From Thermococcus gorgonarius (GTDB taxonomy: Archaea > Methanobacteriota_B > Thermococci > Thermococcales > Thermococcaceae), in the NCBI RefSeq assembly GCF_002214385.1, contig NZ_CP014855.1:248001-312000 (forward strand): a stretch of 64,000 nucleotides of DNA, read 5' to 3'. How positions within the stretch are numbered: position 1 is the first letter of the stretch; each line of letters opens with the position of its first letter. The translations under genes were made by a program, and so were the position numbers. This document shows positions 31,947 through 34,200 of this stretch, piece by piece. The notes beneath the pieces were generated by a model. It made no database searches and was not told the DNA's origin. It saw only the letters and a program-made list of their open reading frames with translations.

Positions 31947-32258
31947 TTATGATTCCATTTTTCCAAAGATGTTGTTCCATGAATAGCTGGACTCTATGAG
32001 CTCGCTCACTGTGAGTTCCTTTTCCTCCACTATTACTGGCTCAAGCTCATGGAGGACCTCCATGATTTTCTCTCGGGAGATGGTTTCCTCGTCAAAGACA
32101 ACGAAACCGTTCTTGGCGTAGCCGTTGAGGAATATCCTCCAGACGCCGAGTTCTTTCTCAAGCTCGTACTGCTTTATCGTGGCCTTCTCCCAGTTGATGT
32201 TCCCGAACTTGAAGTTGAGTCTCGTGAGCTTTTTGTTGAAGACCCTCTCCGTCGTCAT
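31947..32258 (-). CDS. Conserved protein of unknown function, downstream of tes
   Basis: 103 residues: MTTERVFNKKLTRLNFKFGN, KQYELEKELGVWRIFLNGYA and EKIMEVLHELEPVIVEEKEL. Soluble, alpha/beta. ATG 32258 is 6 bases after GGGGTG, which itself lies at the end of the tes gene, so this is the second gene of the tes operon. No family recognised; co-expression with Tes suggests a link to it but proves nothing. Confidence 0.78.
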   Translation of the reverse strand: MTTERVFNKKLTRLNFKFGNINWEKATIKQYELEKELGVWRIFLNGYAKNGFVVFDEETISREKIMEVLHELEPVIVEEKELTVSELIESSYSWNNIFGKMES

Positions 32259-32263
32259 CTTCA

Positions 32264-34036
32264 TCACCCCTTGTTCAGGCCGAAGTAGTCCTCGATGTCG
32301 ATGTAGGTCTTCCTGTAGAGCTCGCTGTTCCTCATCTTTTCAACGAACTCCTTGCTCCTGAAGTACTTGTCCTTCTTGTAGTCCCAGTCCGGGTGAAGGG
32401 CCTTCCACTCGTCCCAGGTGTAGCTGAACTGAGCTTGGACCTTGTCGCGGTAAAGCTCCGGAATCACGTTGAAGGTACAGAACGGGACGATTCTTCCGTC
32501 GGGCATCGCGTAGTGGATGACACAGCGCTCAACCCTCTCAACGTCGTAGTTGTACTCGTCCATGAAGTGCATCATGCCCACGAAGAGCGCGTTCTCGTGG
32601 AACTTTCCAAGGGCATCGTAGTTGCCGTGCATGAACGCGTTCTTTATGAGGTCTAGGACGCTGATGCCCTTCGGGGCGTACTTGTCGTCGTAGAAGCTCT
32701 TGAACTTCATGAATATCTCTGCACCAAGTTTGAGCTTCCTGAGCTTGCCCATGGTCTTCCACTGCTCTATCTCCTCTGCCTTGCTCTCAAGGTACTCAAC
32801 GAAGCCCTCAACGTCTATGAACCTCGGGATTGGAACGACGCGCTTGTTCTCCCGGTCGAGGAAGACGTAGGTTGCCGCACCGCATCCAAAGTGGCTGGTC
32901 ATGTAGTATCTGCTTCCTGTGAAGGCCTCAAAGAACCTGGCTATATGGCCTGCTATCGGAATCGGGTACCAGTCTTCCTTCGCGATGGCACCGTTGGTCT
33001 GCTCCTCAATCCTCTTGATGGCGCCGGGTATTGTTATCCTAAAGCGCTGGCGCTCCTTCTTCGGAACCCTTCCGACCTGGGAAATCGGCTGGAAGTTCAC
33101 ACCGCGGACGATGTCGAGGTGGTTGAGGCCGAAGTTGATTATGGCCCCAAGTTCGTGGTCGTTGACGTTCCTTATGGTCGTCGGCACGAGAACTATTCCA
33201 GGTCCGCCGGCCTTCCTCACGTTCTCAAAGATGAGCGGGATTTCCCAGTGGTTCTTCCAGTTTGTCTGCGGGGTCATTCCGTCGTAGCTCAGGTAGAGGG
33301 TGTTGGTTCCGGCCTCGCGTATCTTCTTGACGAGTTCCGGATCAAAGGCAAGCTTTATACCGTCGGTGTTGAGCTGAACGTGGTCGTAGCCTTCCTCCTT
33401 GGCGATTTTGATTATCTCGATGAGATCCTCCCTAAGGGTGGGTTCACCGCCCGTGAACTGGACAGCGTTAGCACCTATCGGGTGCTCCTTCTTGGCATTT
33501 CTGAGCATCATGCGTATCTGCTCAAGCGTTGGCTCGTATATCGGCTGGCCCTCTCTGGCGTAGAAGAAGCAGTACCAGCAGCTCAGGTTGCAGCGGTTGG
33601 TGAGGACGATGTTAAGTAAACTTGTATGTGAGCGGTGCCTCGGGCAGAGACCGCAGTCCAGGGGACAGTTAACACCCGTGTTTTCAACGTTTGCACTGAA
33701 GAGTTCTTTCTCCGGCCAGAGCCACTTCTTAAAGCGGTAGTACATCTCAACGTCTTCATAATAGAGATCAGTTATCATTCCCTCCGGGCACTTCTTGGTT
33801 ATCCATACCTTGCCATCCTTTTCCCACACAAGGGCAGGGACGACTCTCCTCGTCTCAGGGCAGAGCGAGTACGTCCTGTGGGGAAGATCACCGCCATAGG
33901 CCCTGCTGGCTTTCTTGAGAAGTGCGTGGAATTCCTCCTCGCTTATCTCAGGGAACTCCACTATATCCCTGACTCTCTTAGTTGATTCCGCAAACTCTTT
34001 TTCGCCACTGGGGATTTCACCAAGATTTTCAGCCAT
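32264..34036 (-). CDS. tes: Tetraether lipid synthase (Tes), radical SAM
   Basis: 590 residues. Radical SAM motif CNLSCWYC (about residues 147-154) followed by FFYAREGQPIYEPTLEQIRM and FTGGEPTLRED. Just before it a second cysteine block CPLDCGLCPRH (about 123-133), and earlier YSLCPETRRVVPAL...KKCPEG, a rubredoxin-like pair; further Cys appear in FGCGAA and near the C-terminus (RCVIHY, FCTFN). This set of motifs matches the family of the methanogen enzyme that couples two archaeol tails to make GDGT membrane-spanning lipids. GGGTGATAG precedes ATG 34036. Promoter and inverted repeat lie at 34059-34097. Confidence 0.88.
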   Translation of the reverse strand: MAENLGEIPSGEKEFAESTKRVRDIVEFPEISEEEFHALLKKASRAYGGDLPHRTYSLCPETRRVVPALVWEKDGKVWITKKCPEGMITDLYYEDVEMYYRFKKWLWPEKELFSANVENTGVNCPLDCGLCPRHRSHTSLLNIVLTNRCNLSCWYCFFYAREGQPIYEPTLEQIRMMLRNAKKEHPIGANAVQFTGGEPTLREDLIEIIKIAKEEGYDHVQLNTDGIKLAFDPELVKKIREAGTNTLYLSYDGMTPQTNWKNHWEIPLIFENVRKAGGPGIVLVPTTIRNVNDHELGAIINFGLNHLDIVRGVNFQPISQVGRVPKKERQRFRITIPGAIKRIEEQTNGAIAKEDWYPIPIAGHIARFFEAFTGSRYYMTSHFGCGAATYVFLDRENKRVVPIPRFIDVEGFVEYLESKAEEIEQWKTMGKLRKLKLGAEIFMKFKSFYDDKYAPKGISVLDLIKNAFMHGNYDALGKFHENALFVGMMHFMDEYNYDVERVERCVIHYAMPDGRIVPFCTFNVIPELYRDKVQAQFSYTWDEWKALHPDWDYKKDKYFRSKEFVEKMRNSELYRKTYIDIEDYFGLNKG

Positions 34037-34058: not shown

Positions 34059-34097
34059 TTATACTTCTGGTTGTGGTTCCATCCAGAAGTATAAAAG
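34059..34097 (-). promoter_or_regulatory. tes promoter with a 12-bp inverted repeat
   Basis: TTATACTTCTGG (34059-34070) and CCAGAAGTATAA (34083-34094) are exact inverted copies 12 bases apart. On the minus strand the upstream copy includes the TATA element GCTTTTATACT and the downstream copy lies around the expected transcript start, so a dimeric regulator bound here would occlude the core promoter. Confidence 0.8.
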
Positions 34098-34200
34098 CTT
34101 TTGCGTAAATATGAAGATTTTCCTTCATAGGTATGGGGCAAAGTGAGAAATCTGCAGGTTAAGGTTAAAAGGGAACCAGAAAAGTATTGCCGGTGGTTGA

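Follow-up and report, generated by a model that had tools for sequence, protein, structure and literature searches.

What controls tes, the gene for tetraether lipid synthase, in Thermococcus gorgonarius? Tetraether content varies with growth conditions and is the basis of palaeotemperature proxies. The Tes discovery paper points out that knowing how GDGT formation is regulated could reveal the factors that influence it. In the open-access literature, searched largely through records that come without full texts, we found no report of a tes regulator, or of the palindrome motif and regulon described below. The counterpart of the gene in T. kodakarensis is presumably tk2145. An insertion in tk2145 impaired growth at 93 °C and hardly did so at the optimum (PMC6393311).

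In the window, by which we mean the whole 64,000-nt stretch of DNA that was analysed, tes occupies 32264..34036 on the minus strand and encodes a protein of 590 aa that matches the NCBIfam equivalog model NF045702 at 705.8 bits (cut-off 450). The preliminary description had singled out a perfect 12-bp inverted repeat that straddles the promoter and had proposed it as the site of a dimeric regulator dedicated to GDGT synthesis. The locus raises two questions: which element in front of tes would be the operator, and which protein would bind it?

A conserved palindrome upstream of tes

Alignment of tes upstream regions revealed a conserved block, CCTATGAAGGAAAATCTTCATATTTACGCAAAAGCTTTTATAC on the tes strand, immediately 5' of the TATA box, and the core of this block is the palindrome TATGNA-N8-TNCATA. 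In the window, the palindrome lies at 34110..34129, starting fifteen bases beyond the right arm of the inverted repeat; it reads TATGAA-N8-TTCATA, shows 0 mismatches to TATGAAGN6CTTCATA, and is the best-scoring site of the window with a matrix made from tes cores (29.9, against 11.7 for the second-best). On the minus strand follow a conserved stretch CGCAAAAGC (34097..34105), which would serve as the BRE, and the putative TATA box TTTTATAC (34089..34096), assigned by sequence and position. In all 71 tes upstream entries (the window's own counted twice and duplicates between collections included), exactly 13 nt separate the palindrome from TTTTATA, in six sequence variants.

Many core columns are invariant over 50 distinct 38-mers, a set that leaves out upstream regions shorter than 100 nt or belonging to a Tes whose aligned N-terminal part is less than 68% identical, any 38-mer already included, and the loci L179-L181 and L205. 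Half-site positions 1-4 and 6 are symmetric in 42-49 of the 50 distinct cores, with those of tes and of a radical-SAM gene pooled. Two nucleotides outside the palindrome, CGTA on one side (47 of 50 distinct tes elements) and TATG on the other (39 of 50) extend the element to CGTA-AA-palindrome-GG-TATG (34104..34135); these outer parts might serve a second dimer as additional half-sites. The strong conservation of CGCAAAAG could partly come from the needs of the core promoter.

The palindrome recurs at tes in five other genera. Usual divergent neighbours stand beside tes in 91 other loci, and the site is kept with tes in four loci (L343, L345, L349 and L351) where these neighbours were not found (~1.57 kb upstream); because the element remains with tes there, we consider it unlikely, few as these cases are, that it belongs to a divergent small-gene/UDG promoter. 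Upstream of the tes genes of L013, L015, L023 and L025, on contigs labelled Methanomicrobia or Thermoproteota, inspection by eye found no such palindrome, and a loose-pattern match at L015 came without one.

Genome-wide distribution of the site

Where else does the element occur? A 24-position model was built, from sequence only, on 43 of the 49 distinct 24-mers found at tes and radical-SAM sites; one of the six left out was the shifted site of L203, and five were omitted without a stated reason. Run on 61 genomes of the genus with stricter filters, under which weak sites may be missed, the model gave at least 77 matches at 18.5 bits or more. Among the matches listed, 53 sit 52-76 nt upstream of tes matches, and another 20 precede hits for a radical-SAM gene (24 such genes were found) by 16-30 nt. 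A further match, in G010, ends 72 nt before a contig end, and the tes match begins at the first base of that same contig; provided that this contig forms a circle, the site precedes every one of the 54 tes genes found in the genus. Three of the matches listed lie elsewhere: within a plasmid-like ATPase gene (G011:C1:73397), upstream of a UbiA-like gene (G040), and at a locus that combines a UbiA-like gene with R2 (G051), one of two related TrmB-family genes that we call R1 and R2.

The model matches the tes and radical-SAM sites by construction; what is informative is the scarcity of other strong matches and the neighbours of the weaker ones. Of 20 regions around other model matches, nine adjoin R1, eight adjoin R2, one has the UbiA-like gene alone (G040) and two are in coding sequence; these strong or middling in-coding matches (G011:C1:73397 and G034:C97) count against a regulon of R1. 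Outside the genus, 50 sites were examined in 33 genomes of five genera, and 49 of them lie next to tes (25), R2 (12, ten of them with UbiA alongside), the radical-SAM gene (9), a SPASM radical-SAM gene (2) or R1 (1), with L348 as the one unassigned site; the sample consists of 30 returned loci and 20 fetched ones, with weaker sites outside it.

An independent, symmetric matrix was made from tes cores only (34 distinct) and scored on 140-nt upstream stretches. Scores of at least 10 were reached in front of R1 at all 30 loci fetched of the 58 in the genus with R1 and at 26 of 29 loci in other genera, in front of R2 at 12 of 12, and in front of the radical-SAM gene at 21 of 23 (L205 was too short). 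Such scores occurred in 0.25-1.1% of shuffled upstream stretches, at one of 24 loci of SPASM subgroup B and in one of 909 background stretches of the window. In part of genus g3, the R1 site is weak (6.5-9.4; L421, L424, L429), which speaks against a role for R1. A plain palindrome search at three mismatches was noisy, with 61 forward matches and 56 in the backwards control; with up to two mismatches, the places found were tes, the radical-SAM gene, R1 and one other.

A TrmB-family candidate regulator and its paralogue

The T. gorgonarius copy of R1 lies outside the window (G000:C1:998570-998905, minus strand) and encodes a single-domain TrmB-family protein of 112 aa. Its winged helix matches PF01978 at 39.2 bits (gathering threshold 25.6), and the effector-binding domain of the two-domain, sugar-sensing type (PF11495) is not among its Pfam matches. 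Across the family, the proteins have a size of ~110-125 aa. Close matches are present in 58 of 61 genomes of the genus and in 29 of 33 genomes of other genera, where the four without a match are 75-79% complete. R1 was not found in G036, G040 and G053 (73-91% complete), and these genomes carry the element, a point against R1 as its binder. In the expected recognition helix, SERSVR is invariant in 59 R1 loci (30 of the genus and 29 of others). The C-terminal stretch could pair as a coiled coil. The presence of the palindrome in the promoter of R1 itself, in the 30 genus loci and the 26 of 29 other loci given above, is what would be expected of an autoregulated gene.

The closest solved relative of R1 by sequence is AF2008 (PDB 1sfx; E 1.9e-19 over residues 14-107), a protein named conserved hypothetical protein and presumably from Archaeoglobus fulgidus; the term AF2008 was not found among the literature matches listed.

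The paralogue R2 occurs in 12 genomes of the genus (E <1e-37), with fragments in G049 and G057, and retains SERxVR in 20 of 20 loci. It is usually divergent from a UbiA prenyltransferase gene; at L251, this gene (PF01040) is followed by one for an LPG_synthase_TM protein (PF03706). Further TrmB-like proteins, less similar to R1, are encoded in these genomes.

Radical-SAM and SPASM genes with the site

The radical-SAM gene is patchy, being present in 24 of the 61 genomes of the genus. Four of the 24 lack a listed match at 18.5 bits (G034, G029 and G047, plus G044, whose copy is truncated by the end of its contig); the site is absent in L195, which was excluded from the aligned radical-SAM set, and distorted in L203. 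These gaps count against the regulon. The protein contains one CX3CX2C motif (residues 225-232) and only one other cysteine. It matches the Radical_SAM profile and, below cut-off, B12-radical-SAM and MiaB-type profiles, and a PDB search gave no match. We rejected its identification as Gms, given the single CX3CX2C plus one more cysteine, in contrast to the SPASM clusters in Gms. In one genome (G003:C1:975835-976345), the gene matches as two pieces, one with an internal stop, suggesting a recent loss.

A SPASM radical-SAM gene lies closely 3' of the radical-SAM gene in G008 and G050, and in G082 the two are close, with a B12-binding radical-SAM gene between them. At L338:44-1432, a B12-binding radical-SAM gene (HpnJ/BchE-like, below cut-offs) is located between the SPASM gene and the element-linked radical-SAM gene; the set is a possible lipid-modification cluster. 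The SPASM genes fall into two groups. In the close group A, identity to the G089 query is 45-48%, except for 88% in a broken G014 copy; the wider group B is ~40% identical to this query and includes a member in T. gorgonarius itself. The palindrome precedes two, perhaps three, of these genes, all in group A: it scores 20.2 at L372 and 17.7 at L377, and at L374 a palindrome with a score of 20.3 overlaps a possible start codon. L375 and L376, both behind a radical-SAM gene, have no palindrome of their own, and L373 is broken. Subgroup B was rejected as part of the regulon, as none of its 24 loci scored 15 or more.

Gms, the GMGT synthase, was described as a radical-SAM/SPASM enzyme; species that make GMGTs have its candidate gene and species that do not make them lack it (PMC11186832). 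The element-linked SPASM gene at L355 resembles it in its long N-terminal part, the CX3CX2C motif at 121-128 and the C-terminal SPASM domain. This likeness is one of layout alone, and a second SPASM subgroup exists without the element. Among all these genes, the link to lipids is certain for tes, and lipid roles are presumed for the enzymes other than Tes. At L356 (G082:C5:16200-19200), the SPASM gene, starting from ~1509, has an in-frame TGA at the first cysteine of CX3CX2C, as does L377; a recoded codon would explain this, as would a pseudogene or, in a genome that is 82% complete, an error of sequencing.

Position of the site and proposed regulation

Relative to the core promoter, the palindrome does not occupy the same place at all of its genes. 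It stands upstream of the BRE at a fixed distance at tes, follows the presumed TATA box at R1 and R2 in the genus, and overlaps the TATA box at the radical-SAM gene, the TATA boxes of these latter genes being judged from their sequence. This division is the one that a dual regulator of the Tgr kind would show. A review of the TrmB family describes Tgr and TrmBL1 as activators when bound upstream of BRE/TATA and as repressors when bound on its downstream side (PMC4158304).

Tgr/TrmBL1 (TK1769 / PF0124), the Thermococcales glycolytic regulator, shares with the R1 system a TrmB-family DNA-binding domain and a palindromic motif, and autoregulation has been proposed for Tgr. In contrast, Tgr/TrmBL1 has 341 aa with a sugar-binding domain that the ~110-125-aa R1 lacks, and its motif (TGM) is TATCAC-N5-GTGATA (PMC4158304), whereas TATGNA-N8-TNCATA is found here, which does not place these genes in the Tgr/TrmBL1 regulon. 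Its targets are sugar genes, as opposed to lipid genes here. Tar (TK0271), the aromatic amino acid regulator of T. kodakarensis, is, like R1, a small protein (315-bp gene) and is a shown activator with a 6-N8-6 palindrome upstream of BRE/TATA. However, the motif of Tar is TGGACA-N8-TGTCCA, and its gene lies within the aro operon, unlike R1 in the loci read (PMC6737238 for Tar). OxsR of Haloferax volcanii is, like R1, a single-domain TrmB winged-helix protein, but it is a thiol-based oxidative-stress regulator with a conserved cysteine and other targets (PMC9426492), whereas T. gorgonarius R1 is cysteine-free. A TrmB-type regulator raised in the stationary phase of T. kodakarensis (PMC4870337) would, by its accession number, be Tgr rather than R1. 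A position-dependent regulator of the TrmB type is of a known kind, and R1 as a member of it and the R1 regulon appear to be new.

Because the site at tes lies upstream of the BRE at a fixed distance, we infer that R1 activates this gene; activation of tes follows the geometry of Tgr/TrmBL1 and Tar, and repression of the other targets that of Tgr/TrmBL1. In the regulation that we propose, a dimer of R1 would bind the palindrome at 34110-34129, directly upstream of BRE/TATA, and activate tes by helping TBP/TFB. From a position covering the TATA box or immediately past it, R1 would repress its own gene; some of the species would have the radical-SAM gene, the UbiA/LPG_synthase_TM locus with R2, and a SPASM radical-SAM gene repressed likewise. 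The regulon would tune the amount of tetraether versus diether or otherwise modified lipid. What the genomes show directly are the sites, where they lie, how well they are conserved and which genes they accompany; binding by R1, the direction of each effect and the existence of a signal are predictions built on these. We consider it likely that the palindrome is the tes operator and that R1 is the autorepressed regulator of a membrane-lipid regulon, activating tes and repressing the others. With less assurance, we lean towards the fuller reading of a regulon dedicated to membrane lipids across the Thermococcaceae, in which a core R1 would activate tes and repress itself, a UbiA/flippase-like operon and a lipid-modifying radical-SAM set, to which certain species would add an enzyme resembling GMGT synthase. 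The conserved site seems to let one small regulator control tes, its own gene and other likely lipid genes; if the proposal is true, a single protein would move the membrane back and forth between a tetraether-rich state and one with other modifications. The candidate regulator, the precise position of the site at tes and a handful of genes apparently under the same control make the question directly testable in T. kodakarensis.

The alternative that we take most seriously, though we consider it unlikely, is that the regulator represses tes too: bound just upstream of the BRE, it would hinder TFB, and all targets would respond in the same direction. The direction of an effect is not readable from sequence, and the site abuts the region expected under TFB; yet R1, R2 and the radical-SAM gene have it over the TATA box or beyond, whereas tes has it upstream with a constant 13-nt gap, an arrangement that goes with activation by Tgr/TrmBL1 and Tar. 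Rather improbable, in our judgement, is that the palindrome is a real lipid-regulon operator bound by another protein, with R1 and R2 as mere targets. A shared site does not identify its binder, and the other TrmB-like proteins of these genomes would be available; however, R1 is core and its promoter is the most constant target beside tes, R2 combines the same site with SERxVR in its recognition helix, and autoregulation has been described or proposed for several archaeal regulators (PMC4158304).

The inverted repeat over the promoter

What, then, of the inverted repeat? TTATACTTCTGG (34059..34070) and CCAGAAGTATAA (34083..34094) are exact inverted copies with a 12-nt spacer, just as the preliminary description had said, and the extent it gave, 34059-34097, begins correctly and ends 3 nt too far. 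Its placement of the arms over the TATA box and the transcript start also holds: the TATA box is mostly within the right arm, and the start, expected ~26 nt downstream of it, would fall near 34062-34068, within the left arm. It is mainly the TATA portion of the right arm that is common to relatives. CCAGAAG-like stretches occur in some tes upstream regions of relatives, with no left arm to pair with them.

Within the window, no second perfect 12-bp inverted repeat occurs when spacers of 0-30 nt are allowed. Among 60 simulated windows with the first-order base transitions of the real one, a repeat of this kind turned up at least once in 17% (~1 in 6) if the spacer could reach 30 nt and in 13% if it was limited to 12 nt; the repeat is not clearly beyond chance. 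The two sequence checks that had been suggested, in related Thermococcales tes promoters and elsewhere in the genome, both turned out negative. Across 94 genomes of the family, a search at up to three mismatches found the repeat in the window's own genome and in none of the 93 others, and these two arms, at a spacing of 6-18 nt, occur as a single copy in the 1.67-Mb genome. In the 71 tes upstream entries described above, the arms match at 12 of 12 positions in two, both the window's own, and at 1 to 6 of 12, in the same register, in the remaining 69. With no occurrence in the 93 relatives at up to three mismatches and at best six of the 12 arm positions shared by other tes promoters, the repeat was rejected as a conserved operator; it is not kept in related tes promoters, appears species-private at best, and is probably an accident of one species. 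An RNA hairpin formed by the repeat was rejected by reasoning, because transcription is expected to start downstream of one of the arms.

It could still be the operator of a dimeric regulator, as the preliminary description read it, though of one private to this species, with the exact arms over TATA and start and the singularity of the repeat within the window in its favour; given the one genome copy, the empty search of the relatives, the poor arm matches and the chance of ~17% per window, we consider this very improbable. The wider idea fared better. Since the palindrome precedes all tes genes found and is common to the promoter of a TrmB-family regulator and to other probable lipid genes, a dimeric regulator acting at the tes promoter is supported, through 34110-34129 in place of the repeat. 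To see it as dedicated to GDGT synthesis is too narrow, the apparent regulon taking in other genes. The site was probably wrong and the idea probably right. We consider it most improbable that tes has conserved this stretch merely as an extended core promoter or DNA-structure element, with no regulator site in it: BRE-like CGCAAAAG and TATA do belong to the conserved block, but in front of R1, R2 and the radical-SAM genes the palindrome stands elsewhere with respect to TATA, and its half-sites are symmetric at positions 1-4 and 6, as counted above.

tes and its surroundings

A small DUF3213 gene (31947..32267, minus strand; PF11491, E 9.7e-36) overlaps the end of tes and is a possible operon partner that may be co-transcribed with it. 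G011 and G050 (99% and 94% complete) gave no match to the Tes N-terminal query, and both carry R1 and an element-bearing radical-SAM gene, which is a further point against the proposed regulation. In G011, the palindrome match of 22.6 bits in the ATPase-like gene (L242:1498-1519, corresponding to G011:C1:73397-73418) is part of a stretch that looks plasmid- or virus-like and may be a chance or decoy site. Finally, eight of the 54 tes matches in the genus lie in reading frames of more than 1000 aa, fitting the intein-containing model NF045703, compared with 590 aa here.
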